From positions 3,820,001-3,884,000 of the forward strand of contig NZ_CP045740.1 in assembly GCF_009650765.1 (NCBI RefSeq): a stretch of DNA of 64,000 nucleotides, read 5' to 3'. The notes beneath the pieces were generated by a model. That model saw nothing but the letters and a program-made list of their open reading frames with translations. It did not search any database and was not told where the DNA came from. Shown here piece after piece: positions 3,367 to 48,877 of this stretch. Origin of the DNA: Streptomyces sp. SUK 48 (GTDB lineage Bacteria > Actinomycetota > Actinomycetes > Streptomycetales > Streptomycetaceae). Positions within the stretch are counted from its first letter, which is position 1; each line of letters begins with the position of its first letter. The position numbers were made by a program, and so were the translations under genes.

Positions 3367-3499
3367 GGGTCCGGGCTCCTGAAGGGGGGAGAAGGGGCGG
3401 CTACGGTGACCGGGTAGGGCCGCACAAAGCTATCAACGTGACGTGACCGTCCCGGGTTCCCCCGAGGGCCCCGGGACGACGGCGGGAAAGCGGTGATCC

Positions 3500-3865
3500 A
3501 TGGGACTCGACGACTTCGGCGGCGGTCAGGGACCCCAGCCGGACGTACTGGTCGTGACGACGAACGACGTGCCGGGCCACCGGGTGGAGCAGGTGATCGG
3601 CGAGGTCTTCGGGCTCACCGTGCGCTCCCGGCATCTGGGCAGCCAGATCGGCGCCGGGCTGAAGTCGATGATCGGCGGCGAGCTGAAGGGGCTCACCAAG
3701 ACACTGGTGGAGACCCGCAACCAGGCCATGGAGCGCCTGGTGGAGCAGGCACGCGCGCGGGGCGCCAACGCGGTGCTCGCCTTCCGCTTCGATGTGACGG
3801 AGGCGGCGGACGTGGGGACCGAGGTGTGCGCGTACGGCACGGCGGTGGTCCTGGCCCGGGAGTGA
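3500..3865 (+). CDS. YbjQ (UPF0145) family protein
   Basis: A 121-residue soluble protein. VLVVTTNDVPGHRVEQVIGE opens the YbjQ domain and ANAVLAFRFD closes it. YbjQ proteins form decameric rings and are often labelled heavy-metal-binding, but no biochemical function is established. Starts at ATG 3500. It is divergent from the DedA gene with a short intergenic region. No metal-binding cysteines are visible, so a metal role is not supported here. Confidence 0.85.
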   Translation: MGLDDFGGGQGPQPDVLVVTTNDVPGHRVEQVIGEVFGLTVRSRHLGSQIGAGLKSMIGGELKGLTKTLVETRNQAMERLVEQARARGANAVLAFRFDVTEAADVGTEVCAYGTAVVLARE

Positions 3866-3902
3866 CCCGGGCCAGGACCGTGCTCGGGAGCGCGCCGGCC
3901 GC

Positions 3903-4664
3903 TCAGGAGGTCTGCCGGTCGGCGTTCGCCAGGATGGCCTCGTGCAGATGTGCGGCGAACCCGGGGTGCTGCGCGTCGTAGAACGCGGTGAAGCGCTCGT
4001 CGGCGACATACATCTCGGCGAGACAGCGGTGCATCGGGTACGGGCAGTCGTAGAACCACCTGCCGATGTGCTGCCGGTGCTCCTCGGCCAGGGCCCTGGC
4101 CGCCTCCCCCGTCGCGGGCTCGCCGGCGGCCACCAGGCGGGCGTAGCGCTTCTGCCAGTCGTCCGCCTCGGCCTGGAGCCGCTTCCAGTCCTCCTTGCCG
4201 TAGGCGGCGGCGCGGCGCTGGGACTCGGCCCACTGCGCCGTGCCGCCCCAGCGGGCCTCCGCCTCCTCGGCGTACTGCTCGGGGTCGTTGTCCCCGAACA
4301 CCTCGAACCGTTCCTCGGGTGTCAGATCGATGCCCATCCTGCGTGCCTCCATGGCGTGTTCCACGGCCTCGGCCATGCGGCGCAGCTTCTCGATCCGGGC
4401 GGTCAGCAGGGCGTGCTGCCGGCGCAGGTGTGCGCGCGGGTCCGCGTCCGGGTCGTCGAGCAGCACCGCGACCTCGTCGAGCGGAAAGCCGAGCTCCCGG
4501 TAGAACAGGATCCGCTGGAGCCGGTCGAGGTCGGCGTCGGTGTAGCGGCGGTGACCCGCATGGGTGCGTCCGCCGGGCGCCAGGAGGCCGATCTCGTCGT
4601 AGTGGTGCAGGGTGCGCACCGTGACACCGGCGAACCCCGCGACCTGTCCCACGGAGTAGCTCAA
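3903..4664 (-). CDS. tipA: TipA: MerR-family thiopeptide-sensing autoregulator
   Basis: Product is 253 residues, the same length as S. lividans TipAL. The N-terminal MerR winged helix begins SYSVGQVAGFAG, a coiled coil follows at about 75-108, and a TipAS drug-binding domain runs from residue 110. Cys214, in the context HRCLAEMYV, matches the cysteine that bonds covalently to thiostrepton. Met110 begins MGIDLTPEERFEVFG, the counterpart of the TipAS internal start, and GGAGG lies 8 bases before its ATG (4337), so a separate short form is likely. The TTG at 4664 was chosen because GGAAGG lies correctly upstream and homologues begin here. A MerR-type promoter lies just upstream. Confidence 0.95.
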   Translation of the reverse strand: MSYSVGQVAGFAGVTVRTLHHYDEIGLLAPGGRTHAGHRRYTDADLDRLQRILFYRELGFPLDEVAVLLDDPDADPRAHLRRQHALLTARIEKLRRMAEAVEHAMEARRMGIDLTPEERFEVFGDNDPEQYAEEAEARWGGTAQWAESQRRAAAYGKEDWKRLQAEADDWQKRYARLVAAGEPATGEAARALAEEHRQHIGRWFYDCPYPMHRCLAEMYVADERFTAFYDAQHPGFAAHLHEAILANADRQTS

Positions 4665-4703
4665 CTGTCCGCTTCCTTCCGTTCGTTGTGCGGTACGACG
4701 GTC

Positions 4704-4734
4704 AGCCTGCGGCCTCACGCCACGTGAGGTGCAA
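4704..4734 (-). promoter_or_regulatory. tipA promoter with MerR-type operator
   Basis: On the minus strand, -35 TTGCAC (4734-4729) and -10 CAGGCT (4709-4704) are separated by 19 bases, the overlong spacer typical of MerR-controlled promoters. The spacer holds the dyad CCTCACG-n-CGTGAGG (4713-4729). This closely resembles the thiostrepton-inducible tipA promoter as I remember it and supports autoregulation by the adjacent gene. Confidence 0.85.
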
Positions 4735-4842
4735 GCCCGCGGCGTCCCTGATGCCGGGGCACGGGGGTCAGGGTAGGCGTCCGGGTCGTTCCGGATGTCG
4801 GGTCGGTGCGGCCTTGCATAAGGTGGCGGCGAGGAGGCAGCC

Positions 4843-6249
4843 ATGGCCCTGCACAAAGGTCCGCAGAAGCATCAGGAGCGGGTGTTGTCCGTCAACCCGT
4901 TCTTCGGGGAGGCGAACCCGGTCGGCGGTATGACCGAGGCCCCGCCCACCCACCGGCTTCCGGACGCCCCGATGCCGCCCGCGACGGCGTACCAGCTGGT
5001 CCACGACGAGCTGATGCTGGACGGCAACTCCCGGCTGAACCTGGCCACGTTCGTCAGCACCTGGATGGAGCCCCAGGCCGGGGTGCTGATGGCGGAGTGC
5101 CAGGACAAGAACATGATCGACAAGGACGAGTACCCGCGCACCGCCGAGCTGGAGCGGCGCTGCGTGGCGATGCTCGCGGATCTGTGGAACGCACCGGATC
5201 CGGCGGCCGCGGTGGGCTGTTCGACCACGGGCTCCAGCGAGGCGTGCATGCTGGCCGGGATGGCCCTGAAGCGGCGCTGGACGCAGCGCAACGCCGACCG
5301 GTACCCGGGCGCGCGGCCCAACCTGGTGATGGGGATCAACGTCCAGGTGTGCTGGGAGAAGTTCTGCAACTTCTGGGAGGTGGAGGCGCGGCTGGTCCCC
5401 ATGGACGGCGACCGCTACCACCTGGACCCGCAGGCGGCGGCCGAGCTGTGCGACGAGAACACCATCGGCGTCATCGGCATCCTCGGCTCGACCTTCGACG
5501 GGTCCTACGAGCCGATCGCCGACCTGTGCGCGGCCCTGGACGCCCTCCAGGAGCGCACCGGGCTGGACATCCCGGTGCATGTGGACGGGGCGTCCGGCGC
5601 GATGGTGGCGCCCTTCCTGGACGAGGACCTGGTGTGGGACTTCCGGCTGCCGAGGGTGGCCTCCATCAACACCTCGGGGCACAAGTACGGACTGGTGTAC
5701 CCGGGCGTCGGCTGGGCCCTGTGGCGGGACGGGGAGGCGCTGCCCGAGGAGCTGGTCTTCCGGGTGAACTACCTGGGCGGCGACATGCCGACCTTCGCCC
5801 TCAACTTCTCCCGCCCCGGCGCGCAGGTCGTCGCGCAGTACTACAACTTCCTGCGGCTGGGTCGCGAGGGCTACCGCGCGGTCCAGCAGTCCACCCGTGA
5901 CGTGGCCCGCTCCCTCGCCGACCGCATCGAGGGCCTCGGCGACTTCCGGCTGCTGACCCGGGGCGACGAGCTCCCGGTGTTCGCGGTGACCACGGCCGAC
6001 CATGTCACGGCGTACGACGTGTTCGACGTCTCCCGCCGGATGCGCGAGAGCGGCTGGCTGGTCCCCGCGTACACCTTCCCGGCCAACCGGGAGGACCTCT
6101 CGGTCCTGCGCATCGTCTGCCGCAACGGCTTCTCGCACGACCTGGCCGACCTCTTCCTGGACGACCTGACCCGCCTCCTGCCGGAGCTGCGCCGCCAGCC
6201 GCATCCGCTGACCCGGGACAAGGAGGCGGCGACCAGCTTCCACCATTAG
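4843..6249 (+). CDS. gad: Glutamate decarboxylase (PLP-dependent)
   Basis: Decarboxylates glutamate to GABA, consuming a proton. The 468 residues match bacterial GadA/GadB length. The PLP lysine is Lys281 in NTSGHKYGLVYPG, Asp248 in HVDGASG should contact the PLP ring nitrogen, and SSEACMLAG lines the phosphate site. Starts at ATG 4843 behind GAGGAGGCAGCC. It is divergent from tipA. No glutamate/GABA antiporter gene is adjacent, so it may serve GABA metabolism rather than a classical acid-resistance system. Confidence 0.94.
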   Translation: MALHKGPQKHQERVLSVNPFFGEANPVGGMTEAPPTHRLPDAPMPPATAYQLVHDELMLDGNSRLNLATFVSTWMEPQAGVLMAECQDKNMIDKDEYPRTAELERRCVAMLADLWNAPDPAAAVGCSTTGSSEACMLAGMALKRRWTQRNADRYPGARPNLVMGINVQVCWEKFCNFWEVEARLVPMDGDRYHLDPQAAAELCDENTIGVIGILGSTFDGSYEPIADLCAALDALQERTGLDIPVHVDGASGAMVAPFLDEDLVWDFRLPRVASINTSGHKYGLVYPGVGWALWRDGEALPEELVFRVNYLGGDMPTFALNFSRPGAQVVAQYYNFLRLGREGYRAVQQSTRDVARSLADRIEGLGDFRLLTRGDELPVFAVTTADHVTAYDVFDVSRRMRESGWLVPAYTFPANREDLSVLRIVCRNGFSHDLADLFLDDLTRLLPELRRQPHPLTRDKEAATSFHH

Positions 6250-6364
6250 GACACCGTCACCGGGAGGTCCGGTGGTCGCCACCGGCCCGGCGGCCGGTGG
6301 CGGCTCGGCGCCCGGTGGCGGCTGAGTGGTCGGCGGCCGGTCGGTGGCCGGCGGCGGGTTCCGG

Positions 6365-6907
6365 TCAGCCCCGCGCCCGCTCCAGGGCCACCAGTTCGAA
6401 CGCGGTCTTCCCGTCCAGGGACTCGCGGATGATGTCCGCGTGACCGGCGTGGCGGGCGGTCTCGCGGATCAGGTGGAGGCAGAGCCAGCGCAGCGAGACC
6501 CGGCCCTCCGGCGGGAACCAGGGGTGCGGCGGGAGCGCGAAGGTGTCGTCCAGGCTCGGGGCGGAGCGGATGAACTTCTCCGTATCGGCGGCGATCCGCT
6601 CCCAGTGGGCGAGCTGCGCGGCGACCGTCTCCTCGCCGACCAGCTCGAAGCTCTCGTGCCAGTCGGACTCGTCCCGGCGCACCGGCGGCGCCTCCTGCCC
6701 GGCCAGGACGAGCCACATCTGCTCGACCTCGGCCACATGCTTGAGCAGCCCGCCCAGCGACAGCTCGCTCGCGCTCGGGCGGCTGCGGGCCTGTTCCTCG
6801 GTCAGCCCGAGCACCGACCGGCGGATACCGCCGCGCTGCTCCTCGAGGAACGCCAGCAGCGCTCCCCGCTCGTCGCCCCGTGCCTCCGCGGACACATGCG
6901 TGACCAT
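6365..6907 (-). CDS. DinB-fold protein (DUF664 type)
   Basis: A 180-residue four-helix-bundle protein of the DinB/YfiT superfamily, many members of which are metal-dependent thiol transferases. LGGLLKHVAEVEQMW carries the first metal-type His and LRWLCLHLIRETARHAGHAD carries the others. The ATG at 6907 follows GAGGAGAGG; an extension to 6955 lacks a ribosome site. Substrate unknown. Just upstream of gad's 3' end and convergent with it. Confidence 0.8.
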   Translation of the reverse strand: MVTHVSAEARGDERGALLAFLEEQRGGIRRSVLGLTEEQARSRPSASELSLGGLLKHVAEVEQMWLVLAGQEAPPVRRDESDWHESFELVGEETVAAQLAHWERIAADTEKFIRSAPSLDDTFALPPHPWFPPEGRVSLRWLCLHLIRETARHAGHADIIRESLDGKTAFELVALERARG

Positions 6908-7034
6908 GACCGGCCGCCTCTCCTCGGTTGTTCGCCGTGGCGTTCGCCCCGACACCGGAAAAGCTACGGGCCCTCTAGGTCAGATCCTGTCCTAGAAGGC
7001 CCGCGGCGAGGAGGCCGGGACGATCCGGTGGCGA

Positions 7035-8495
7035 TCAGAACGGGAAGGCGCTGCGGCCGTGCTGGACGGAGATCCACTTGACCGTGGTGAACGCCTCCAG
7101 CGTCGTCTCGCCGTTGAGCCGGCCGACACCGGAGTGCTTCTCGCCGCCGAAGGGCACGATCGGCTCGTCGTGCACGGTGCCGTCGTTCACATGGAACATG
7201 CCGGTGTCGATCCGCTTGGCGAAGGAGACGCCGCGCTCGATGTTCCCGGTGTGGACGGCGCCGCTGAGGCCGTAGGGCGTGTCGTTGACGATCCGCACCG
7301 CTTCCTCCTCGCCGTCGAAGGGCACCAGGAAGACGACCGGTCCGAACACCTCCTGCTGGAGCAGCGGGGAGCCGGCGGGGACACCGGTGAGCACCGAGGG
7401 CTCGACCAGGTTGTTGGCCGTACCGCCGTGCAGCAGGGCCGTCGCGCCCTCCGCGAGCGCCTGCTCGACCACGCCCGACACGGCGTTCGCCTGCGCGGAG
7501 TTGATCACCGGGCCGATGACGGTCTCCGGGTCACGCGGGTCGCCCACCTTCAGGGTGCGCACCTTGGCGACGAACTTCTCGGTGAACTCGTCGGCGACCG
7601 AGCGGTCCACGAGGACCCGGTTGGCGGCCATGCAGACCTGCCCCTGGTGCACGAACCGGCTGAAGACCGCGGCGTCCACCGCGTAGTCGAGGTCCGCGTC
7701 GTCCAGCACCACCAGCGCGCTGTTGCCGCCCAGTTCGAGCACCGAGCGCTTGAAGTTCGCGGCGCACACGGTGGCGACGTGCCGGCCCACCTGGTCGGAG
7801 CCGGTGAAGGAGATGACCTTGGGGACGGGGTGCTCGATGAAGGCGTCGCCGATCTCGGCGATGTCGGTGACGACGACGTTCAGCAGCCCGCCGGGCAGCC
7901 CGGCCTCCTCGAAGAGCCTGGCGATCAGGGTGCCGCCCGCGATCGGGGTGTTCTGGTGCGGCTTGAGCACCACGCCGTTGCCGAGCGCGAGCGCCGGGGC
8001 CACGGACTTCAGCGACAGCAGGAAGGGGAAGTTGAAGGGGCTGATCACGCCCACGACGCCCACCGGCACGCGGTAGACACGGTTCTCCTTGCCCTCACCG
8101 GGGGACGGCAGGATCCTGCCCTCGGGGCGCAGCGCCAGGTGGACGGCCTCGCGCAGGAACTCCTTGGCGAGATGCAGCTCGAAGCCGGCCTTCACCCGGG
8201 TGCCGCCGAGCTCCGCGATGATCAGGTCGGCTATGTCCTGCTCGCGGTCCTCGATCAGCCGGAGCACCCGCTCGAACACCGTGCGCCGCGCGTACGGGTT
8301 GGTGTCCGCCCATGCCTTCTGGGCACGCTCGGCGGCCCGGTACGCCTGGTCGATCTCGTCGACGGTGGCCACGGTGATCGAGGCCAGCTTCTCGTCGTCG
8401 TAGGGGTTGAAGTCGATGACGTCCCAGGAACCGCTGCCCGGTCGCCATTCGCCGTCGATGTACTGCTGGGCCAGGTCGCTGAAGTAGGACGACAT
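7035..8495 (-). CDS. Aldehyde dehydrogenase (NAD(P)-dependent)
   Basis: A 486-residue ALDH superfamily enzyme oxidising an aldehyde to its carboxylate. The catalytic Glu is in LELGGNSALVVLDDAD and the nucleophilic Cys in HQGQVCMAANR. Adenine-dinucleotide contacts lie in ISPFNFPFLLSLKSVAPALA and FTGSDQVGRHV. The sequence resembles benzaldehyde/vanillin dehydrogenases more than betaine-aldehyde enzymes, but substrate cannot be fixed. The ATG at 8495 has GAGGG just upstream; a TTG at 8507 would overlap that site. Confidence 0.9.
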   Translation of the reverse strand: MSSYFSDLAQQYIDGEWRPGSGSWDVIDFNPYDDEKLASITVATVDEIDQAYRAAERAQKAWADTNPYARRTVFERVLRLIEDREQDIADLIIAELGGTRVKAGFELHLAKEFLREAVHLALRPEGRILPSPGEGKENRVYRVPVGVVGVISPFNFPFLLSLKSVAPALALGNGVVLKPHQNTPIAGGTLIARLFEEAGLPGGLLNVVVTDIAEIGDAFIEHPVPKVISFTGSDQVGRHVATVCAANFKRSVLELGGNSALVVLDDADLDYAVDAAVFSRFVHQGQVCMAANRVLVDRSVADEFTEKFVAKVRTLKVGDPRDPETVIGPVINSAQANAVSGVVEQALAEGATALLHGGTANNLVEPSVLTGVPAGSPLLQQEVFGPVVFLVPFDGEEEAVRIVNDTPYGLSGAVHTGNIERGVSFAKRIDTGMFHVNDGTVHDEPIVPFGGEKHSGVGRLNGETTLEAFTTVKWISVQHGRSAFPF

Positions 8496-8570
8496 GTGAT
8501 CCCTCAATCACTAGCGGAGCCGTATCCCGGCCACGGTCTGAGTCTGATCACACGTCATCCTACTTGCGGG

Positions 8571-9431
8571 TCAGGAGAGTTGGAGGAGTCCTCTCAGAAG
8601 ATCCCGGCTCTCGTCGGGACCCGGGCTGTCCTGCTGCAACTCCTTCAGAGCCTGCTCGTACTGGGCGACGTCCTCGCGCTTGTCGAGGTACAGCGCACTG
8701 GTCAGCTGCTCCAGGTAGACCACGTCGGAGAGGTCGGACTCGGGGAAGCTGAGGATGGTGAAGGCGCCGCTCTCGCCGGAGTGCCCGCCGAAGCTGAACG
8801 GCATGACCTGGAGCCGTACGTTGGGCCGCTCGGAGACGTCGATGAGGTGCTGGAGCTGGCCGCGCATCACCTCGCGGTCGCCGTAGGGGCGGCGCAGGGC
8901 GGCCTCGTCCAGGACGACATGGAACTCGGGCGCGTTCTCGGAGAGCAGGTACTTCTGGCGCTCCAGGCGCAGCGCGACCCGGCGTTCGACGTCGTCGGCG
9001 CTCGCGCCCTTCATGCCGCGCCGGACCACCGCGCGGGCGTACTCCTCGGTCTGGAGCAGACCGTGCACGAACTGCACCTCGTAGGCGCGGAGCAGGGTGG
9101 CGGCGCCCTCCAGGCCCACGTAGGTGGGGAACCAGTTGGGCAGGACGTCGCTGTAACTGTGCCACCAGCCGGCGACGTTGGCCTCGCGGGCGAGGGACAG
9201 CAGCGACTGGCGCTCCGCCTCGTCCGTGATGCCGTACAGCGTCAGCAGGTCCTCGACGTCTCTCGTCTTGAAGCTCACCCGGCCCAGCTCCATCCGGCTG
9301 ATCTTCGACTCGGACGCTCGGATGGAATATCCCGCCGCCTCGCGCGTGATCCCCCGCGCCTCACGCAGTCGCCTGAGTTGCGAGCCGAGCAGCATCCGCC
9401 GCACCACCGATCCGGGCTCTCCCGCGCTCAC
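8571..9431 (-). CDS. XRE-family regulator with DUF5753 (WhiJ-like)
   Basis: A 286-residue protein with an N-terminal helix-turn-helix (LRRLREARGITREAAGYSIR, about residues 20-40) and the DUF5753 domain (from about residue 100), the architecture of the large Streptomyces WhiJ/Scr1-like family. These are usually encoded with a DUF397 protein and an RsbW-like ATPase. Both lie next door here, so the three probably form one developmental or antibiotic regulatory module. GTG 9431 is preferred because GGGGAGG precedes it at 9 bases. Confidence 0.88.
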   Translation of the reverse strand: MSAGEPGSVVRRMLLGSQLRRLREARGITREAAGYSIRASESKISRMELGRVSFKTRDVEDLLTLYGITDEAERQSLLSLAREANVAGWWHSYSDVLPNWFPTYVGLEGAATLLRAYEVQFVHGLLQTEEYARAVVRRGMKGASADDVERRVALRLERQKYLLSENAPEFHVVLDEAALRRPYGDREVMRGQLQHLIDVSERPNVRLQVMPFSFGGHSGESGAFTILSFPESDLSDVVYLEQLTSALYLDKREDVAQYEQALKELQQDSPGPDESRDLLRGLLQLS

Positions 9432-9739
9432 GTTCGCCAGCCTCCCCAACCGTCTTCAGGGGCCGAAGTCTGCCACTAAAACGCTCCGCGCAGTACTCGT
9501 ACGGTTACGGAAACGGAGAGAGCGGGGCCGTTTCCGTCAGGCCGGACGAGGAGGTGGTCCGTACCATTGACGGTAACCGTCAGGAAGATGGCAGAAAAAA
9601 TGGCCAAGAAGTGGTACGGGCCTGCCTATTTCGGTCGCGTGCACGTGCATCTGCCCTTGCATCTGCTCTTCCCATCCGAAACCATGGTCCCGCGCCACCG
9701 CTGCATCGCAACGACCGCGAATTCCCGGGAGTGCCTCGC
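9432..9739. other. Divergent regulatory region between WhiJ-like gene and ATPase gene
   Basis: A 308-bp gap with no supported gene. It holds the promoters of both divergent genes and is locally A-rich around 9590-9610. The clearest element is the dyad listed at 9568-9582. Confidence 0.5.
9568..9582. promoter_or_regulatory. Candidate operator dyad
   Basis: TGACGGT-A-ACCGTCA, perfect 7-bp arms about one base, between the XRE regulator and the ATPase gene. It is a plausible autoregulatory site for the WhiJ-like protein; no direct evidence. Confidence 0.45.
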
Positions 9740-10237
9740 ATGGGGACGAATGGATCGACCATGCTCAAGCCGTTACGGCAGGGCCTTCCGCCGTTGGATC
9801 CCGCGGCCGTGTCCAACGCCGCGTCCTGTGCTCTGCCGGCGCGGTACGAAGCGGTGCGCGAGGCCCGGCGGTTCACCCGGGACATGCTCGGACAGTGGGG
9901 CGTCGACGAGCGCTTCGACGATGTCTGCCTGGTCGTCTCCGAACTGGTCACCAACGCGCTGCGGCATGCGATGCCCGGTGAGTACGGGTGCACGGAGGAG
10001 CATGTCGCCTCGGTACGGCTGCACTTGATGCGATGGGACGAGCGGCTGGTCTGCGCGGTGCGGGACCCGAGTCACGAGACGCCGGTACCACGGGACTCCG
10101 ACGACTTCTCGGCGGAGTCGGGGCGAGGGCTCTTCCTGGTCGACTCCTTCGCGGACGGCTGGGGCTGGCATCCGCTGGCCGGACCGCTGACGGGCAAGGC
10201 CGTCTGGGCGATGTTCCACGTGGAACGCCCGGCCTGA
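9740..10237 (+). CDS. RsbW-like ATP-binding regulatory protein containing a TTA codon
   Basis: A 165-residue GHKL/HATPase_c protein of the anti-sigma/AbaA-OrfB type. The N box is VSELVTNALRHA and the G-type motif is SGRGLFLVDSFAD. These proteins bind ATP and may sequester sigma factors or modify partners. The ATG at 9740 follows GGGAG at 8 bases; a second Met (9761) is possible. Leucine 12 is encoded by TTA (9773-9775) and lies downstream of either start, so translation may require the bldA tRNA. It sits between a WhiJ-like regulator and a DUF397 gene, the standard trio. Confidence 0.85.
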   Translation: MGTNGSTMLKPLRQGLPPLDPAAVSNAASCALPARYEAVREARRFTRDMLGQWGVDERFDDVCLVVSELVTNALRHAMPGEYGCTEEHVASVRLHLMRWDERLVCAVRDPSHETPVPRDSDDFSAESGRGLFLVDSFADGWGWHPLAGPLTGKAVWAMFHVERPA

Positions 10238-10308
10238 CGTCTACGCGCGTCGCCCCTTCACGCGCCCGCCCGCGTCTGATCCGCGGGAACCGGCGGGCCC
10301 CACCGGGA

Positions 10309-10539
10309 TCAGCCGGCGATCAGGTGGTCGAACTCGCCGTCCTTGATGCCCAGCAGCATCGCTTCTATCTCGGCCCGCGTGTAGACCAGTGCGGGACCGT
10401 CCGGGAAACGGGAGTTGCGGACGGCGACCTCGCCCCCCGGCAGGCGCGCGAACTCCACGCACGAGCCCTGCGAGTTGCTGTGCCTGCTCTTCTGCCAGGC
10501 CACTCCGTCCAGCTGCGTGGCAGCCATGCCGTTGTACAC
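10309..10539 (-). CDS. DUF397 small acidic regulatory protein
   Basis: A short protein with the DUF397 signature WQKSRHSNSQGSCVEFARL followed by VAVRNSRFPDGPALVYTRAE. DUF397 proteins typically pair with WhiJ-like XRE regulators and may act as antagonists; mechanism unproven. Start is uncertain. GTG 10539 (76 aa) has GGGGGG 6 bases upstream; GTG 10599 (96 aa) and ATG 10527 are alternatives with weaker sites. Third member of the module with the XRE and ATPase genes. Confidence 0.82.
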   Translation of the reverse strand: MYNGMAATQLDGVAWQKSRHSNSQGSCVEFARLPGGEVAVRNSRFPDGPALVYTRAEIEAMLLGIKDGEFDHLIAG

Positions 10540-11023
10540 GTCGTACCCCCCGAACACGCCGTCTACGTCGCGGTCCACAGGTCGCTCCCCGGTGTGCACT
10601 GGCTGGTGAGGCCATCGATGCGGTGGTCAACTGACCTGGATCATAACCCTCGCCTCACGTGCAACCGCACGGGCAGATGCACGTGCACGGCGAGTGTTCT
10701 CACCATTACACCCTTGACGTGCGCTTTACCTGACGTTGTGCGGCCGTATGCCGCCGTTTCCACCGAAGCCGTCCCCGCGCTTGCCCCGGGGTGGCCGGTA
10801 CATGCCACTCCGTCCCCGACCATGATCATCCATGGTGCCGGCGGAGCCGGATCACCGGGGCCGGATTTGTCGTGCACAAGTAAGAGACGCATTCCGCGCG
10901 CTTACTGTTGCACGCCTGGCAAGGAAGTCCTGGCGCACCGGAGTTCCCGGCGGGGTCTGCTGATAGCTTGCTGCGGGCCGTCCGGCCGAGGGCGGCGGAC
11001 GCCTACTTCTTGGGGAGCCTGAC
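10540..11023. other. Intergenic region with dyads, no gene seen
   Basis: A 484-bp gap between the DUF397 gene and a lipoprotein gene. It includes the palindrome TGCACGTGCA (10678-10687) and an 11/13 inverted repeat (10872-10884 with 10901-10913, GTGCACAAGTAAG). No convincing coding frame; probably promoters of the flanking divergent genes. Confidence 0.4.
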
Positions 11024-11533
11024 GTGACTTCGGCGACTGCTTCGACCGGTACACGGGTGCGGATCGCGGCCCTGGCCGCGGGACTGGTGGGCGCGCTGGC
11101 GCTGACGGCGTGCGGCGGCGGTGGCGGCACCGACCACTCCTCCGCGAGCCCGTCGAACGCGGCGAGCACCGGCTCCGCCCCCTCCGCCTCCGCCGGCGGC
11201 TCCGGTGTGACCGGCGCCTCCGGCAAGCTCCAGGGCAGCTGGCTGGCCACCAGCGGCGGCACCATCGTGGCCCTGGTGATCAACGGCAAGCAGGCCGGGA
11301 TCTTCGCGACCGGCGGCACCGTGTGCAGCGGCACCGCGGGCACCGAGTCCGGTATGCAGATGATCCACCTGACCTGTGCCAAGGGCAGCAAGGACCGCAC
11401 CACCGGGATGGTCGACTCCATCGACGGCACCTCCATGAAGGTGACCTGGTCGGGCAAGGTGGGGCAGGAGACGTACACCAAGGCGGAGGGCGGCAAGCTG
11501 CCGTCCGGACTGCCGAGCGCCGCCGCGCAGTGA
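11024..11533 (+). CDS. Secreted lipoprotein, function unknown
   Basis: A 169-residue exported lipoprotein. The signal peptide hydrophobic core is LAAGLVGALAL and the lipobox is LTAC, giving lipid-modified Cys at about residue 30, then a Gly/Ser linker. The mature domain (GSWLATSGGTIVALVINGKQ...) is rich in beta-strand-like segments and has two further cysteines that could form a disulfide. GTG 11024 follows TTGGGGAG. I recognise no enzymatic motif. Confidence 0.85.
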   Translation: MTSATASTGTRVRIAALAAGLVGALALTACGGGGGTDHSSASPSNAASTGSAPSASAGGSGVTGASGKLQGSWLATSGGTIVALVINGKQAGIFATGGTVCSGTAGTESGMQMIHLTCAKGSKDRTTGMVDSIDGTSMKVTWSGKVGQETYTKAEGGKLPSGLPSAAAQ

Positions 11534-11680
11534 CCGCCCTTTCCCGTACGGACGGCGCGGCTCTCGCACGGACGCCGCGGGAAACACCTGAAGCGGTGAT
11601 TTGCGAGGGGCGCGCGAACGGAGCCCCCGTCCAGGCGCGATGATGCAGGAGCACCGTCACGACCTCGATGGGACCTGCTC

Positions 11681-12199
11681 ATGCGCGCCTTTCCGCTCAC
11701 CGTCTCCGCCGTTGCCGCCGCCCTGCTGCTGACCGCATGCGGTGGCGGGGGGAACAGCGGCAGCGGCGGCAAGAACAGCTCGGCCTGCCAGATCGGCGGG
11801 GTGTCCCTCCAGGTCGGGGCGGCGAGCGTGGCGCCGGCGGCGGGTGACACCGGCGAGGTGCCGGTCAGCATCACCAACCAGAGCAAGACCTGCACGCTGG
11901 AGAACTTCCCCGGCGTCACCCTGGTCAAGGGCGGCACCAGCGCGAAGCTGTCCGCCCAGAAGGGCGCGAAGGCGCAGAGCCTGAAGCTCGCCAAGGGCGA
12001 CGCCGCGACCTTCACCATCAGCTATGTCCGCGGCAAGGACGGCGACGCCGGCAGCCTCGCGGCCACCGGACTGAAGATCACCCTGCCGGGCGGGGACGCG
12101 GTGCAGAGCTTCCCCTGGAAGTACGGCCCGATCGCCGGCCAGGGCGCCGCGACCGAGCCGAACGCCTCCGTCAGCACCTTCCAGCAGGCCGGCGACTGA
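11681..12199 (+). CDS. Secreted lipoprotein with DUF4232-like domain
   Basis: A 172-residue lipoprotein. Signal MRAFPLTVSAVAAALLLTAC has a lipobox cysteine at residue 20. The mature part (CQIGGVSLQVGAA... CTLENFPGVTLVKGG) matches the Streptomyces DUF4232 immunoglobulin-like domain, usually secreted and of unknown role; two cysteines likely form a disulfide. Same orientation as the preceding lipoprotein, 147 bases downstream, probably its own promoter. Confidence 0.85.
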   Translation: MRAFPLTVSAVAAALLLTACGGGGNSGSGGKNSSACQIGGVSLQVGAASVAPAAGDTGEVPVSITNQSKTCTLENFPGVTLVKGGTSAKLSAQKGAKAQSLKLAKGDAATFTISYVRGKDGDAGSLAATGLKITLPGGDAVQSFPWKYGPIAGQGAATEPNASVSTFQQAGD

Positions 12200-12225
12200 G
12201 CCTCCGGGGGCGCGCGGGCCGCGCC

Positions 12226-13335
12226 TCACCCCAGCCGCGGCCGCGCCCTGACCTGGGCGCGGTCCGCGGCGGCCGCGCCCTCCGTCCAGCCCGCCTCGTC
12301 GCTCACCCCGCGCAGCCGGGTGGTCGTGGTCTGCGGGAACATCCGCTCCATCCGGCCGGTGACGGCTGTCTCGCGGGTGGCCAGCACCGGCAACAGGTCC
12401 TGGGTCACCTGGCTCTCGGCGGCGGCCGCGAGCCGGGCGCCGACCCGGTGGGCGTAGGCGGCGAGGAAGGACTGCCGGAAGGTCTTGGTGCGCTTGCGCC
12501 CACCCGCCCGCTGGCCCGCCTCGGCCTTGGCCATCGCGTGCGTGGCCTGCACCAGCAGGGAGGTGTAGAGCAGTTCGACCGCCTCCAGGTCGCCCTCGAA
12601 GCCGACGACGGTGGAGAAGCAGAGCGGTTCGTTCCACACCGCGCGGCAGTGGTTGGCGGTGGCCACGGCGTCCAGCAGGACGGCCTTGGCCTGTTCGTAC
12701 GGCGGCTCGACGCCGATCCGGCAGGCTCCGGGCGTGTCCGGCGCGGGCGCGGCGGCGGCGAGCAGCGCCTCGTCGACGCTGTGCCGGGCCATCAGCTCCT
12801 GCGCCTTGGCGGTCAGGGCCTCGGCCTCCTCCGGGTAGCCGGTCGCCTCGGCCTTGGCGAGCAGCGCACGGATGCGGCCGAGCAGCCGGGCGGCGGCGGG
12901 GTCGCTCGGGCGGCGGGTCTCCTCCTCCAGGGGTTCGAGGGAGGGCAGGCGCAGCAGCAGGCGGTACAGCTCCAGGACGGTGGTGGCGTGGGAGAAACGG
13001 TCGGCCCCGGCGGCGGGGCCCTCGGGCAGCTCGTCGAGCTGGGCGGCCCAGCGGCGCCCGCGCGGCCGGTCCGCGCCGGACTGCGCCCGGATCAGGGCCG
13101 CGGCCAGCAGCGCGTGCGGCTGCTCCAGCTCGCGCCGCACCAGTCGTACGACATCGGCGGGCGCCCAGCCGCGCCGCCACGCGGTCGCCATGAACTCCTC
13201 GCCGCGCCGCGCGAGTTCGGGGTCCGCGGCGGGGTCGGCGGCGAGCAGGGAGGCGCCCGTGTCGAGGCCGGTGTCGGTGTCGTCGTAGAGCGCGGCCCGG
13301 AAGGCCCGTTCGACGGTGCTGGCGGAACTGGTCAC
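12226..13335 (-). CDS. DUF2786-domain protein
   Basis: A 369-residue cytosolic protein. The DUF2786 motif is around residues 150-190 (LLGRIRALLAKAEATGYPEE, then ALTAKAQELMARHSVDE), followed by a C-terminal region with ERMFPQTTTTRLRG. DUF2786 proteins occur in phages and actinobacteria with no proven activity. Start at GTG 13335 is the first that fits; the ribosome site is weak. Divergent from the Clp-N/HTH gene with a 137-bp gap containing an E. coli-consensus DnaA box (13389-13397). Confidence 0.8.
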   Translation of the reverse strand: MTSSASTVERAFRAALYDDTDTGLDTGASLLAADPAADPELARRGEEFMATAWRRGWAPADVVRLVRRELEQPHALLAAALIRAQSGADRPRGRRWAAQLDELPEGPAAGADRFSHATTVLELYRLLLRLPSLEPLEEETRRPSDPAAARLLGRIRALLAKAEATGYPEEAEALTAKAQELMARHSVDEALLAAAAPAPDTPGACRIGVEPPYEQAKAVLLDAVATANHCRAVWNEPLCFSTVVGFEGDLEAVELLYTSLLVQATHAMAKAEAGQRAGGRKRTKTFRQSFLAAYAHRVGARLAAAAESQVTQDLLPVLATRETAVTGRMERMFPQTTTTRLRGVSDEAGWTEGAAAADRAQVRARPRLG

Positions 13336-43010: not shown

Positions 43011-43514
43011 TCACCGGCTCCCCGGGGCGGGCTGCGGAGACCTCGGACCAAGTGCCGGCAGGGCGGAAGGCGGCGGGGCGAAAGCGAAGGCCGGTGGGTC
43101 CGCCGGGCCCGCTCTGGAGCGGACCTCCGCCGTGAACGGACCGCCTCCCGACGCCGCGGTCACGTCCGCGATCTCGCCCTCCACCGCGCAGCGCACCAGC
43201 CGAACCCGCTGGGCCGTCGCCACGCGGCCGGCCAGGACGCAGGCCGCCTCGCCGCCGTCCGCCCAGTGGTCCGCGGCCGCGAGCGCCGCCAGATCCGCGC
43301 CGCCCGCCGCCCGGTGCCGGACGGTGACGGCGTGCCCCAGCGCCAGCACCGCGCCGAACACCACGCAGAGCACCGCGATCGCCCCGAGGCTCCAGACGGT
43401 GGCGGAACCCCGGTCGGAGCCGTACCGGCCCCCCGTTCGCCGCGCCAGGGCCCACCTCCGCAACCCGCCCCGGCCGCTCACCCGAACCCGCACCCGCGCC
43501 CTCCGCCACCTCAC
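43011..43514 (-). CDS. TadE/G-like pilus assembly protein (Rv3654c-type)
   Basis: A 167-residue secreted or membrane-anchored protein. SDRGSATVWSLGAIAVLCVVFGAVLAL is a pilin-like N-terminal helix, followed by LAALAAADHW, as in the Rv3654c helicase/secretion neighbourhood family of actinobacterial Tad loci. The product is likely a minor pseudopilin or assembly factor. GTG 43514 overlaps the TadE stop (GTGA), so the two are translationally coupled. The C-terminus is Pro-rich. Last gene of the Tad operon. Confidence 0.8.
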   Translation of the reverse strand: MRWRRARVRVRVSGRGGLRRWALARRTGGRYGSDRGSATVWSLGAIAVLCVVFGAVLALGHAVTVRHRAAGGADLAALAAADHWADGGEAACVLAGRVATAQRVRLVRCAVEGEIADVTAASGGGPFTAEVRSRAGPADPPAFAFAPPPSALPALGPRSPQPAPGSR

Positions 43515-43897
43515 GGCCCCGCCCCCTTCCCCCCGACCGTCTCCTCGGCCAACGCCACCGCCTCCTCGCGGAGTTCGAAGGGCAGACCGCTGAGCACCGG
43601 CGGCCTCGCCACCACCGTCACGCGCACCTGGTCGCCCTCTCGTCCGACCGTCACCCCGGCCCCGCTCGGTGCTGCCTGACGGGTCACCGACAGCACCGAG
43701 GCGGGCGGGTCCTGGCGGGCGGCGGCCCGGGCGCCCACGCGGGCCGCGTCCACACACCGGATCTGCGCCGCCGCCATGAGCAGCGCCCAGACCAGCGCCA
43801 TCGTGAACGCCACCAGCACGCACAGCGCCATGGCCGCCTCCGCCGTCACGAAGCCCCGGTCCGAGCCTCGGCCCGAGCCCCGTTCACATCCGCGCAC
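43511..43897 (-). CDS. TadE-family minor pseudopilin
   Basis: A 128-residue protein with the TadE signature DRGFVTAEAAMALCVLVAF (Gly-Phe...Glu, pilin-like cleavage site) and one membrane helix, then an extracellular domain. TadE proteins are minor pilins of Flp/Tad systems. GTG 43897 begins inside the end of the preceding pilin gene and has AGAAGG upstream. Confidence 0.82.
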   Translation of the reverse strand: MRGCERGSGRGSDRGFVTAEAAMALCVLVAFTMALVWALLMAAAQIRCVDAARVGARAAARQDPPASVLSVTRQAAPSGAGVTVGREGDQVRVTVVARPPVLSGLPFELREEAVALAEETVGGKGAGP

Positions 43898-44084
43898 TGA
43901 GGGCCTTCTTCACGATGGACTGGAGCTCCGCCCGGACCTCGCCGCTGGTGACGACCTCGTACAGCAGCATGGCGAATCCGACGGCCGCGATGATCCCCAT
44001 CGCGTACTCCGAGGTCACCATTCAGGAGTCCCGGCGGCACACCCGCCGCACCCCGGCCAGCACTTCGACGATCTTCCTCTTCAT
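43884..44084 (-). CDS. Flp-type pilin (DUF4244) with in-frame TGA at the processing site
   Basis: ATG 44084 (after GAGGGGAG) opens a 20-codon leader, MKRKIVEVLAGVRRVCRRDS. TGA follows at 44024-44022, and directly after it ATG 44021 begins MVTSEYAMGIIAAVGF..., 45 codons ending at 43884, in the same frame. Homologues have Gly where TGA stands, as in GMVTSEYA. That Gly is the -1 residue of the type IVb prepilin site, with Glu+5 and Tyr+6 retained. A one-base change (GGA to TGA) explains it. Whether it is a real nonsense mutation, sequencing error or a re-initiation design is open. Too short for most gene callers. Confidence 0.8.
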
Positions 44085-44161
44085 CTCGACTCCCCTCAGG
44101 TCCTGGTCTGTTCTCACGTTGTCCGTCCTCGGTATCCGTCCTCGGTATCCGTCGCCGCTCC

Positions 44162-44941
44162 TCACCTCCCCGCCATCACGCCGCCCGCCAGCCCGATCAC
44201 CACGGGCAGCACGCCGATCGCGACGAAGGCGGGCAGGAAGCACAGCCCCACCGGCGCGGAGATCATTACGGCCGCCCGTCTGGCCCGTGCCGTCGCGGTG
44301 CGGCCCCAGTCCGCGCGGGTGTCCGAGGCGATGCGGGCCACCGGCGCGGCGGCGGGCAGCCCCGACTCGCCTGCCCGCTCCAGCAGCCGCGCCAGGGCAC
44401 CCGCGCCCGGCAGCGCGGCCAGCCCGCGCCACGCGTCCGCCGGTGTGCCGCCGAGCCGTACCTCCGCCGCGCCCCGCGCCAGCGCCTGTCCGACGGGCCC
44501 GCCCAGGGCCTCGCCCACCGCCTGCGCGGCGACCACGGGCCCGGCGCCGGCCGCGATACAGGCGGCCAGCAGATCGGCGGCGAGCGGCAGCCGGCGCGCG
44601 GCCTCGGCGGTATCGACGGCCGCCGCCCCGCCCGCCGCCGCCTGGCCCGCTCGCCAGCGCCAGAGCACGGCCCCGGCGCCGAGGCCCAGCAGCGCCCCGA
44701 CGGGCCCGCCGACCAGCACCCACACCCCGCCCGCCGCACCCACGAGCGGCAGCCATCGCCGCACCGTGTCCACGACCGCCGACCGCGGCTTCCGCGTCGC
44801 GGGCTCCGGTCGCAGCAGTCCGGCCGCCCGCTGCCGCGCCCGGCGGACCCGCCGGGCCGACACCACCAGCCGGCCGCCCCAGCCGAGCGCCACCGCCACC
44901 GCCACGGCCGTCCCCAGCCTGTGCACAACATCCCCGCTCAC
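44162..44941 (-). CDS. tadC: Type II secretion F-family protein (TadC)
   Basis: A 259-residue inner-membrane protein with a GspF-like domain (VDTAEAARRLPLAADLLAACI) and terminal hydrophobic segments (ISAPVGLCFLPAFVAIGVLP). With TadB it forms the membrane platform through which the TadA ATPase drives pilin extrusion. GTG 44941 starts VSGDVVHRLG. Lies 35 bases after tadB and 77 bases before the pilin gene. Confidence 0.85.
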   Translation of the reverse strand: MSGDVVHRLGTAVAVAVALGWGGRLVVSARRVRRARQRAAGLLRPEPATRKPRSAVVDTVRRWLPLVGAAGGVWVLVGGPVGALLGLGAGAVLWRWRAGQAAAGGAAAVDTAEAARRLPLAADLLAACIAAGAGPVVAAQAVGEALGGPVGQALARGAAEVRLGGTPADAWRGLAALPGAGALARLLERAGESGLPAAAPVARIASDTRADWGRTATARARRAAVMISAPVGLCFLPAFVAIGVLPVVIGLAGGVMAGR

Positions 44942-44976
44942 GCCCTCACGTCTCCCTCCACGTCCAGACCCGCGCC

Positions 44977-45828
44977 TCACACCGCCTCCGCTCCCCGCAC
45001 GATCCGCGCCGACCACCACAGCCCGGCCGCCTCGAACACCGCGCCGATCAGCAGGCAGCCCAGGCCGGGGCCGCTGTGCAGGAGGACCCGCAGCGGGGCG
45101 GCGCCCATGGCCGCGCCCAGGAGAAGGCCCAGGACGGGGAGAGCGGCGAGCAGGACGGCGGTGGCCCTGGCGCCGGCCAGTTGGGCGCGCAGGTCGGCAC
45201 GCTGGTCCCGTTCGGCCCGCAGGGCGCCGTCCAGCCGGTCCAGGCCGGCCGCGAGTCCCGCGCCCTGGTCGACGGCCACCCGCCAGCACGCGGCCAGCCC
45301 GAGCAGCCCCTCGGCGCCCGGCTGCCGGGCCGCCACGGCGAGGGCGCCGGGCACGTCCCCGCCGAAGCGGGCCGCCGCGACCACGGCCGCCCGCGCCTCG
45401 CCGAGCCCGCCCGAGTCCCGCGCCGCCCGCAGCAGCGCCTCGCCGGGCTGCCGTCCGGCCCGCACCTCACCGGCGAACGCCCCGCACAGGGCGATCACCT
45501 GGTCCACCCGCCGCTCCCGGGCGCGTCTCGCCTCCCCGGCCCGCCGCACCCGGCGCAGCACGGGCACCCCGGCCGCCCCCGCGACGACCGGAATCACCGA
45601 GCCGCCCAGCAGCGCGAGCAGCAGCCCCGCGACCAGGGCCCACCACTCGGCTCCCCAGCGGTCGCGCAACCGCCGTAATGCCGAGAGGAGTTGATCCTGG
45701 ACCGGCGGAGCGGCCCCCGGCCCTCCGTCCCCGGCCAGCAGCAGCCGCGCCCGCCGCACCCCGTGGTACCGCTCGCACAGCAGCCACCCCAGCGCGGCCA
45801 GACAGATCAGCGCGGCCCCCATCGACAT
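44977..45828 (-). CDS. tadB: Type II secretion F-family protein (TadB)
   Basis: A 283-residue GspF-family membrane protein. Its hydrophobic segments include AALICLAALGWLLC, WWALVAGLLLALLGGSVIPV and TAVLLAALPVLGLLLGAAMG. RVDQVIALCGAFAGEVRAGR is the cytoplasmic GspF-like helix bundle. Pairs with TadC. ATG 45828 is one base beyond the tadA stop, so translation is coupled. Confidence 0.86.
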   Translation of the reverse strand: MSMGAALICLAALGWLLCERYHGVRRARLLLAGDGGPGAAPPVQDQLLSALRRLRDRWGAEWWALVAGLLLALLGGSVIPVVAGAAGVPVLRRVRRAGEARRARERRVDQVIALCGAFAGEVRAGRQPGEALLRAARDSGGLGEARAAVVAAARFGGDVPGALAVAARQPGAEGLLGLAACWRVAVDQGAGLAAGLDRLDGALRAERDQRADLRAQLAGARATAVLLAALPVLGLLLGAAMGAAPLRVLLHSGPGLGCLLIGAVFEAAGLWWSARIVRGAEAV

Positions 45829-45829
45829 C

Positions 45830-47182
45830 TCACCCCTCACCTTCACCACCTCCGAATCCGCCACCCCGGCCACCTCCGATTCCGCCCCGGGCACCGGTCG
45901 TCCCGTCCTCTCGGCCGCCCCCGAACCCGTCACCATCACGGCCCCCGGACCCGGCACCTTCGCCTCCGCCCCATCCGCCGCCGTCGCCACCACCGCCCCC
46001 GCCCTCGTGCATGAACTCCCCCAGCCCACCCAGCAGTCGGGCCAACCGCCCCCACCCCGCCTCCCGCACGAACGCCCGCTCCCCCCACCGCAGCGCGGGC
46101 ACCGTCCGCACCAGACCTGTGGCGTCCCGCTCCAGGACGTGCACCTCGGCGATCCGGCGCCGGCCGGAGCGGTCCCGCACCAGGTGGAGCACCACGGACA
46201 GGGCGGCCGCCAACTGGCTGTGCAGGGCGGCGCGGTCGAGGCCCGCGGCCGTGGCCAGCGCCTCCAGACGGGCCGGGACGTCCCCGGCGGTGTTGGCGTG
46301 GACCGTGCAGCAGCCGCCCTCGTGGCCCGTGTTGAGCGCGGCGAGCAGATGGACGACCTCGGGTCCGCGCACCTCTCCGACGACCAGCCGGTCCGGCCGC
46401 ATCCGCAGGGCCTGGCGGACCAGGTCCTCAAGGGTGACCAGGCCCGCGCCCTCCTGGTTCGCGGGCCGGGTCTCCAGCCGGACGACATGCGGATGGTCGG
46501 GTCTCAGCTCGGCGGAGTCCTCCGCGAGCACGATCCGCTCCCCCGCGCCGACCAGGCCGAGCAGGGCGCTGAGCAAGGTCGTCTTGCCGGTCCCGGTGCC
46601 GCCGCTGACCAGGAAGGACAGCCGGGCGGCCAGCAGGGCGCGCAGAATCCGGTCGCCACCGGGCGGGACGGTGCCGGCCGCCACCAACTCGGCGAGGGTG
46701 AAGGCCCGGGGCCGTACCACCCGCAGGGCCAGGCAGGTGCAGCCGACGGCGACCGGGGGCAGCACGGCGTGCAGCCGGGTGCCGTCCGGGAGCCGAGCGT
46801 CCGCCCACGGCCGGGCGTCGTCCAGCCGGCGTCCGGCCACCGCGGCGAGCCGCTGCGCGAGGCGTCGTACCGCCGCCGCGTCGGGGAAGGCCACCGGGGT
46901 CAGTTCCAGGCCGCCGCCCCGGTCCACCCACACCCGGTCGGGCGCGGACACCAGGACGTCGGTGACCCCGGGGTCGGCGAGCAGCGGCTCCAGGGGCCCG
47001 GTGCCGACGAGTTCGGATCTCAGCCGCTCGGCCACCCCGAGGACCTCGGCGTCCCCGAGGACCCGCCCCTGTGCGCGCAGCGCCTGCGCGACCCGTGCCG
47101 GGGTGGGTTCGGCGCCGCTCTCGGCGAGCCGCCGGCGCACCCCGTCGAGCAGGGCGGTCTGATCAAGCGTTCCGAAGCTCAT
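45830..47182 (-). CDS. tadA: Tad secretion ATPase (TadA/CpaF) with Gly-rich tail
   Basis: A 450-residue hexameric ATPase powering Tad pilus assembly. Walker A is VSGGTGTGKTTLLSALL, the Asp box region is IVLAEDSAELRPDHPHVVR, Walker B is RPDRLVVGEVRGPEVV, and the His box is LNTGHEGGCCTVHAN. The last ~57 residues are almost entirely Gly with Asp/Glu/Arg, a tail absent from typical CpaF proteins. ATG 47182 overlaps the ssd stop (ATGA). Confidence 0.92.
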   Translation of the reverse strand: MSFGTLDQTALLDGVRRRLAESGAEPTPARVAQALRAQGRVLGDAEVLGVAERLRSELVGTGPLEPLLADPGVTDVLVSAPDRVWVDRGGGLELTPVAFPDAAAVRRLAQRLAAVAGRRLDDARPWADARLPDGTRLHAVLPPVAVGCTCLALRVVRPRAFTLAELVAAGTVPPGGDRILRALLAARLSFLVSGGTGTGKTTLLSALLGLVGAGERIVLAEDSAELRPDHPHVVRLETRPANQEGAGLVTLEDLVRQALRMRPDRLVVGEVRGPEVVHLLAALNTGHEGGCCTVHANTAGDVPARLEALATAAGLDRAALHSQLAAALSVVLHLVRDRSGRRRIAEVHVLERDATGLVRTVPALRWGERAFVREAGWGRLARLLGGLGEFMHEGGGGGGDGGGWGGGEGAGSGGRDGDGFGGGREDGTTGARGGIGGGRGGGFGGGEGEG

Positions 47183-48276
47183 CGCGCGCCCCCGGACTCC
47201 ACCAGCGCCCGCTCCCAGAACTCGGCGCAGAACCGGGCCAGCGGGCCGCGTCCGCTCGCGCCCGGCGGTCTGCCGCCGCCCCTCGGCCGCAGCAGCCCGG
47301 GCTCCACCGGCACCTCTCCCGCGAGCGGCAGACCGAGCAGGCGGGCCACTTCGCGGTCGTCCAGACCGGACGCGTACGGACCGCGCACCGCGACCCGCAG
47401 ATCGCGGACGACCACGCCGATGGCGGCGGCGATCCGGCCGGCCGCGGCGAGTGCCCGCAGTTCGGCGGGGACGACCAGGAGGGCCAGGTCGAGCTGGGCG
47501 AGGACCTCGCCGACCCCGTCGTCCAGGCGGCGGGGCAGATCGACCACGACGGTGCCGCCGCGGCGCCGGGCGGCGGCCAGCACCGCCCGCACGGCCTGGG
47601 GCGGCACGGCGACGCAGTCGCCCCGGTCCCAGCTGAGCACCCGCAGGGAGTGCAGCGCGGGCAGCGACTCCTCCAGGGCGCCGCCGCCGACCCGGCCCCG
47701 GGAGGCGGCGAAGGCCGGCCAGCGCAGGCCCTCGGCGCCTTCGCCGCCGAGCAGCACATCGAGACCGCCGCCGAGCGGATCGGCGTCCACCAGCAGGGTG
47801 CGCAGTCCCTCGCGGGCGGCGGTGACGGCGAGCGCGCAGGCCAGGGTGGACGCGCCGGCCCCGCCCCGGCCGCCGATCACGCCGACGGTGAGGGCCGGCC
47901 GGCCGACCCCCTCGGCGACGTCGGCGATCCGGTCGACCAGCCACTGCTCGCCCTCGGGGAGGATCAGGACGTGGTCGGCGCCGATCTCCATGCCGCGCCG
48001 CCATACGTCCGGGTCCTCCCGGTCGCGGCCGATCAGCACCACCTGGCGCCGCCGGGCGGCCCCGAGCAGCCGGTGCGCCGCGTCGTCCCCGACCAGCACG
48101 AGCGGGGCCGCGGCCCAGGTGCCGCCCTGGTCGGGGACGCCGTGGTGCACCTCGGGTGTCGCGCCCGCGGCCGCGCACAGCCGCAGCAGATCGTCCAGCA
48201 GCGCGGCGTCCTCGGTGACGATCAGCGGGCCGCCGCCGCGGGCGGGCGGCGGGTCATGGGTGATGGTTGCGGACAC
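47179..48276 (-). CDS. ssd: Ssd/CpaE-like septum-site-determining ATPase
   Basis: A 365-residue MinD/ParA-family protein. A pseudo-receiver-like N-terminal domain (to ~120) precedes a deviant Walker A VIGGRGGAGASTLACALA and LLVDADPLGGGLDVLLG. CpaE proteins position Tad pili; the actinobacterial Ssd homologue affects septum placement. GTG 48276 with GGGGGAACAC upstream. First gene of the operon ssd-tadA-tadB-tadC-pilin-tadE-tadE-like. Confidence 0.85.
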   Translation of the reverse strand: MSATITHDPPPARGGGPLIVTEDAALLDDLLRLCAAAGATPEVHHGVPDQGGTWAAAPLVLVGDDAAHRLLGAARRRQVVLIGRDREDPDVWRRGMEIGADHVLILPEGEQWLVDRIADVAEGVGRPALTVGVIGGRGGAGASTLACALAVTAAREGLRTLLVDADPLGGGLDVLLGGEGAEGLRWPAFAASRGRVGGGALEESLPALHSLRVLSWDRGDCVAVPPQAVRAVLAAARRRGGTVVVDLPRRLDDGVGEVLAQLDLALLVVPAELRALAAAGRIAAAIGVVVRDLRVAVRGPYASGLDDREVARLLGLPLAGEVPVEPGLLRPRGGGRPPGASGRGPLARFCAEFWERALVESGGAR

Positions 48277-48877
48277 GGTGTTCCCCCTTCGCCGCGCGGC
48301 CCCTCGGCCGCGCGATTTCCCGACATGTGGAGAACCGGCGGACGGCTTCCCTATGAACGGCGACATGAACGACTGTGTGAAGGCCGACCGGAATCGGCCA
48401 TACGCCTCCCGCAAACGGAACCGGCCGTGAACTCGCCGCGGCGGGAGCGCATGGGAAACACGGTGCGGCGATCCGTGAAATCGTGTGGATCTTGGTGGAA
48501 AACCGTGGACAACTCAGGCCCTGTGAATAACTCCGTCACCCGAACCGGTGACGCCTGTACCGACCCCTGTGCGGCATCCTCAGCGCAGCCCTACGATCAC
48601 CCGGAGTAACGAATCATGGGTGCGCGGAAGCGGCGGCCACGGCGCGGAAGCGCCGGCCGCTCGGCCGTACGAGGGAAGGAAAGAGGCGGAAAAACCCGTC
48701 CGGACATGCGACGACCCCCGCCGGGGGGAGAGCGGGGGTCGTCCCCACGGCCGACTCGGGGGGGAGGAGCCGGACCGGGTTAGCACGGTCGCGAACGATC
48801 CGTGACTTCCATGGTGTACCCGAGAGCCTTCTCAGGCAAACCCACGCGCCCCACCTTACGCCGAATGGTGGGCGCCT
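48277..48877. other. 601-bp intergenic region with DnaA-box-like sites and a terminator hairpin
   Basis: Divergent control region for the Tad operon and the HAD gene. Near 48484-48530 lie three DnaA-box-like sequences on the minus strand: AGATCCACA, TTGTCCACG and TTATTCACA. A 12-bp hairpin is at 48710-48743. No gene seen. Confidence 0.5.
48710..48743. terminator. Hairpin GACGACCCCCGC/GCGGGGGTCGTC
   Basis: Perfect 12-bp arms with a 10-base loop, 135 bases before the HAD gene. Could terminate an upstream small transcript or attenuate the HAD mRNA. Confidence 0.6.

Follow-up and report, generated by a model that had tools for sequence, protein, structure and literature searches.

The gene for the major pilin of the tad/flp locus of Streptomyces sp. 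SUK 48, an Flp pilin of the DUF4244 family, carries a TGA where the glycine codon at position -1 of the prepilin is expected. We consider it probable that this is a nonsense mutation, probably a recent one, which is private to the strain or to its closest kin. Judged from the sequence, assembly of the Tad/Flp pilus has probably been lost in SUK 48. As a genome finding, the change is best explained as the loss allele of one strain in an otherwise ordinary Flp pilin gene. If it is real, SUK 48 is by nature a strain that lacks a working pilin gene while the remainder of its tad locus is complete, and such a strain would be useful for learning the role of the Tad pilus in Streptomyces, on which a literature search covering titles and abstract openings found no centred paper.

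The interrupted pilin gene and its tad locus

The window, by which we mean the whole analyzed stretch of 64,000 nucleotides from contig NZ_CP045740.1 (positions 3,820,001 to 3,884,000), contains the following features, given in window coordinates and in the order of transcription.

about 47179..48414, minus strand: TadZ/CpaE-like protein of the Ssd family (TIGR03815, 353.7 bits)
45830..47182, minus strand: TadA ATPase (TIGR03819, 516.1 bits), start predicted from the sequence at 47182
44977..45822, minus strand: TadB-like T2SSF membrane protein (PF00482, 36.5 bits, matched in a longer ORF), start predicted from the sequence at about 45822
44162..44941, minus strand: TadC-like T2SSF membrane protein of 259 aa (PF00482, 52.8 bits, matched in the longer ORF 44162-45289)
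44085..44104, minus strand: Shine-Dalgarno region of the leader start, forming a duplex with the 16S tail of -11.5 kcal/mol
44022..44084, minus strand: 20-codon ORF for the leader of the interrupted prepilin, net charge +5
44022..44024, minus strand: TGA replacing the codon for Gly(-1), the residue preceding the prepilin peptidase cleavage site
43884..44021, minus strand: mature DUF4244/Flp pilin ORF, 45 codons (PF14029, 69.6 bits), with the E5-Y6 motif
43511..43897, minus strand: TadE-like minor pilin gene of the Rv3655c family (NF041390, 111.9 bits), GTG start
43011..43823, minus strand: ORF containing an Rv3654c-family Tad/TadG-like gene (TIGR03816, 96.6 bits, and PF13400; residues 137-240 matched)

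The strand of the pilin gene, left unstated in the original prediction, is the minus strand throughout. The coordinates given there are exact, as 43884-44084 spans precisely the leader ATG through the pilin stop. The leader ORF runs from the ATG at 44084-44082 through MKRKIVEVLAGVRRVCRRDS to the TGA at 44024-44022, and the mature pilin ORF runs from the ATG at 44021-44019 through MVTSEYAMGIIAAVGFAMLLYEVVTSGEVRAELQSIVKKALSARM to the TGA at 43886-43884. Both ORFs share a common reading frame and abut, the second ATG following the internal TGA directly, as had been claimed.

The assignment of the gene to the Flp/DUF4244 pilins, likewise proposed before, is borne out by the match of PF14029 (DUF4244) to the 45-aa ORF, which reaches 69.6 bits (1.5e-19) at a curated cut-off of 27. 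When the genome is searched with PF14029, the only match crosses the TGA (75.6 bits, with '1 TGA' inside), which identifies the leader and the mature part as one interrupted gene. The features that define a DUF4244/Flp pilin are present, namely E5 and Y6 of the mature chain (MVTSEY) and the setting in a tad locus with tadA, tadB/C and tadE. The E5-Y6 motif is shared with the Flp of other actinobacterial tad/flp loci (M. tuberculosis Rv3656c, S. coelicolor Flp), and Met at mature +1 is found in Rv3656c as well (PMC9531140). In contrast to these actinobacterial Flp pilins, SUK 48 has a TGA at Gly(-1), and its leader and mature pilin form separate ORFs. The gene thus lacks what a functional type IV prepilin requires, a Gly or Ala codon at -1 in one ORF that spans leader and mature part, whereas it bears the marks of a nonsense pseudogene: the in-frame stop is missing from intact orthologues, and a search of the genome for paralogues returned nothing. 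The genome (8.34 Mb) is a single contig of 100% completeness, and neither PF14029 nor the 45-aa query detects a second pilin in it that could stand in for the first.

The genes are transcribed in the order tadZ/cpaE, tadA, tadB, tadC, pilin, tadE and Rv3654c-family gene, which matches the order described for the M. tuberculosis tad/flp locus in PMC9531140. Beyond the Rv3654c-family gene follows a DECH-box helicase (TIGR03817) on the opposite strand. That the remainder of the tad operon is intact, as the original prediction held, agrees with the open reading frames of these genes, their profile matches and the dN/dS values given below, which speak for conservation. The GTG start of tadE, whose own Shine-Dalgarno sequence is weak (-5.5 kcal/mol), falls within the pilin ORF, so that translation of tadE probably depends on coupling to the pilin. 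A prepilin peptidase of the A24 family is matched once in the genome (3648250-3648582, L069), in an open frame of 438 aa at a distance of about 215 kb from the tad locus. As a separate observation, a 12-base in-frame near-tandem duplication is located near the tadE start (window 43868-43879), and it has no counterpart in S. murinus, S. griseofuscus or S. malaysiense.

Codon -1 in related genomes

Homologues of the pilin gene were searched in 392 Streptomyces genomes, 18 of which gave no match. Among the best 30 loci, all 29 others carry Gly at -1 followed by ATG (GGA in 16, GGG in eight and GGC in five), and the same holds for 73 of 73 loci from named Streptomyces genomes (36 GGA, 23 GGG, 14 GGC). 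The two sets overlap, with 18 of the 29 loci recurring in the second, and together they comprise about 84 distinct loci. The position of the stop at the Gly(-1) codon is thereby confirmed. In addition, a stop pattern consisting of TRR-ATG plus the mature motif, which detects only genes having that motif, was found in one of the 392 genomes, namely SUK 48. The Gly version of this pattern occurs in 288 of the 392, of which some matches are perhaps not pilin genes (a few genomes have two) and one is the split gene of genome G255 described below; at least about 100 genomes therefore lie beyond the reach of the stop-pattern test. Plasmid records yielded one weak match, in Nonomuraea gerenzanensis.

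Of the relatives with a species name, S. murinus, S. griseofuscus and S. malaysiense are the closest, their DNA being 91.5-91.8% identical across the tad region as aligned (the S. murinus figure covers 1.2 kb only). All three have a Gly codon at -1 in an uninterrupted ORF, whereas SUK 48 has TGA and two ORFs, and in S. griseofuscus and S. murinus the leader consists of the same 20 residues as in SUK 48, followed by Gly. Among proteins from near kin, P0003 is 100% identical in its 45 mature residues, has a slightly different upstream stretch and carries Gly at -1, which shows that a close relative is intact; the near-kin proteins P0122 and P0123 are TadC sequences of 99% identity. The suggestion that one base was exchanged, GGA to TGA, is compatible with these data, a single substitution from the inferred ancestral codon being sufficient.

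A widespread occurrence of the stop was considered on account of 45-aa database entries and rejected. Four proteins of 45 aa occur among the best 120 of 260 proteins, one of them being that of SUK 48 itself (P0002), and the remaining three (P0081, P0082 and P0037) equal the mature pilins encoded by L021, L019 and L093, loci which have the codons GGA, GGG and GGA at -1. Their short forms are consistent with start-calling at the mature Met(+1), which would hide the leader.

The restriction of the stop to one genome, and the presence of Gly in the otherwise identical near-kin protein P0003, would also be expected if the TGA were an assembly error or a minority variant of the sequenced culture and the prepilin gene were in fact ordinary. 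However, the assembly is complete and consists of one contig, and within the 200-base gene the change is a substitution accompanied by neither an indel nor a second lesion, so we regard an error as rather unlikely.

Decoding of the stop and fate of the product

Relatives and genome content bear likewise on the idea that the UGA is read through, by selenocysteine insertion or near-cognate decoding, to give a full-length prepilin. The genome encodes a tRNA-Sec (76.5 bits, anticodon TCA, above the cut-off) with an adjoining SelB-like gene, and an 8-pair hairpin follows the pilin TGA at a spacing allowed by a loose bacterial SECIS rule. However, the SelB match of 217 bits stays under the curated cut-off of 242.25, and a comparable hairpin follows 83 of the 1111 TGAs in the window and, in 46 of 73 relatives, the Gly codon itself, which makes it seem a side effect of coding-sequence conservation. 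Rfam gives no match up to E 5 in 43800-44200, and a SECIS specific to the UGA copy was thus not found, the hairpin being shared with relatives that have no UGA. Neither Sec nor Cys occupies -1 in any of the homologues (0/73 and 0/29, in overlapping sets), and a residue other than Gly at this position would probably block prepilin processing. Homologues with the same TGA and a dedicated read-through mechanism were looked for, and there are none in the genomes covered by the stop-pattern and named-locus tests. A conserved selenocysteine or read-through mechanism was rejected on these grounds, as the stop occurs in no other genome covered and the hairpin is non-specific, and we judge read-through of any kind to be extremely improbable.

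Independently of the pilin, selenocysteine machinery seems to be present in this Streptomyces, in which the tRNA-Sec and the adjoining SelB-like gene, the latter in an 885-aa open frame, are located at G000:C1:7472339-7474188 (L064, L151).

Returning to a nonsense mutation as the preferred reading, the consequences depend on where ribosomes start. The Shine-Dalgarno sequence of the leader is strong, with 1.3% of the 889 ATGs in the window being as strong or stronger, whereas that of the mature ATG amounts to -4.0 kcal/mol, which 44% of these ATGs at least equal. Being average, it gives no indication of independent initiation at the mature ATG. Termination-reinitiation operates in E. coli at distances of a few nucleotides, and, in the experiments described in PMC10666635, moving the stop to +2 nt lowered native coupling by 5, 20 and 70% for three E. 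coli pairs (PMC10666635). Coupling needed no more than the final 15 nt of the upstream gene in these tests, which were performed in E. coli and Haloferax rather than in Streptomyces (PMC10666635). These junctions resemble that of the SUK 48 pilin in having stop and start a few nucleotides apart on one transcript, but they separate two genes, whereas the SUK 48 junction sits inside one interrupted gene. By analogy, re-initiation at the ATG at 44021, yielding a leaderless pilin, is plausible.

Ribosomes from the strong leader start would terminate after 20 codons, and some of them would re-initiate at the abutting ATG to produce the 45-residue mature chain without the basic leader. With such a restart, ribosomes would moreover stay on the mRNA as far as the start of tadE, which would still be translated. 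The mature +1 residue is Met in every locus of both sets compared, the 29 and the 73, and for this reason the ATG after the stop is no coincidence and the leaderless product has the same sequence as a normally cleaved pilin. The hydrophobic stretch of the leaderless product is flanked by a charge of -1 on its N-side and of +2 on its C-side, which by the positive-inside rule favours an inverted membrane orientation. The leaderless chain would therefore likely be inserted the wrong way round or be degraded. Lacking both leader and cleavage site, it would not be a substrate of prepilin peptidase, which cuts at Gly or Ala ahead of the hydrophobic stretch (PMC3244431). Gly(-1) is invariably conserved among the Flp prepilins aligned in PMC9531140, and maturation is described as critical for the incorporation of pilin into the pilus (PMC12075869). 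The Myxococcus Flp pilin KilP polymerizes even when the peptidase KilA is missing, an outcome for which the authors hold another peptidase responsible (PMC12075869). We would thus expect that no Tad pilus is assembled from leaderless pilin. Some function of the leaderless product is possible, and the SUK 48 gene provides a well-defined natural case in which to ask whether pilin made by restart, and hence leaderless, can be inserted and assembled.

Stop and restart could, in principle, take the place of proteolytic maturation, if they split the prepilin and the leaderless pilin still inserted and assembled, with prepilin peptidase being bypassed. With Met at +1, only a stop at exactly -1 yields a restart product equal to the cleaved pilin, the zero spacing favours termination-reinitiation, and the mature ORF is intact and encodes a protein identical to that of P0003. 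How special the position is can be gauged from the codons which one substitution can turn into a stop. The -1 codon is one of 18 such targets in S. malaysiense and one of 17 in S. hygroscopicus, but none of the 16 in S. griseofuscus and none of the 17 in S. murinus, both of which have GGG. With 18 targets, a stop exactly at -1 is a coincidence of about 6%, given one nonsense substitution in the gene, and hence an accident of merely about 1 in 18. Furthermore, the arrangement is seen once and is not conserved, the Shine-Dalgarno sequence of the restart is no better than that of an average ATG, the missing +5 leader suggests that the chain would insert in inverted orientation, and the A24 peptidase gene is retained. 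Maturation by translation is therefore very improbable in our view, and we give slightly less credence still to its full form, in which a free leader peptide and an assembled mature pilin would make the Tad pilus independent of control by prepilin peptidase.

Conservation of the tad genes and a second interrupted pilin gene

For the six other tad genes, all dN/dS values between SUK 48 and S. griseofuscus, S. malaysiense and S. hygroscopicus are below 0.5, although these values average the entire divergence from other species, most of which preceded the stop, and thus have little bearing on its age. They amount to 0.17-0.24 for tadZ, 0.18-0.22 for tadA, 0.24-0.38 for tadB, 0.27-0.38 for tadC (here without the last codon), 0.09-0.24 for tadE and 0.40-0.47 for the Rv3654c-type gene. 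A comparison of S. griseofuscus with S. malaysiense gives, for the genes in this order, 0.20, 0.17, 0.32, 0.56, 0.16 and 0.69. The mature pilin shows two to three non-synonymous changes against each relative, which are too few for a rate. Decay is not visible, from which it follows that the stop is probably recent or an error; the absence of decay in the mature 45 codons would be equally expected if the gene still worked in some way.

Interruption of the pilin with the machinery kept is not confined to SUK 48, and is found at least twice among the matches examined. In the Streptomyces genome G255, about 9.4 kb of inserted DNA separates roughly the first eleven mature codons of the pilin gene from the remainder, with tad genes on both sides:

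L077 (C1:5264000-5283000), about 3375-12797: insertion in the G255 pilin gene, encoding a DUF6262 protein and, next to each other, two tyrosine recombinases of 387 and 843 aa

In both genomes, the major pilin is interrupted while tadA, tadB, tadC, tadE and the Rv3654c-type gene lie alongside, but the interruption is an insertion in G255 and a stop codon in SUK 48. The G255 insertion also encodes an alpha/beta hydrolase and a protein with a metallo-beta-lactamase fold, and its arrangement of recombinases and DUF6262 protein presumably resembles that of Tn554-type elements.
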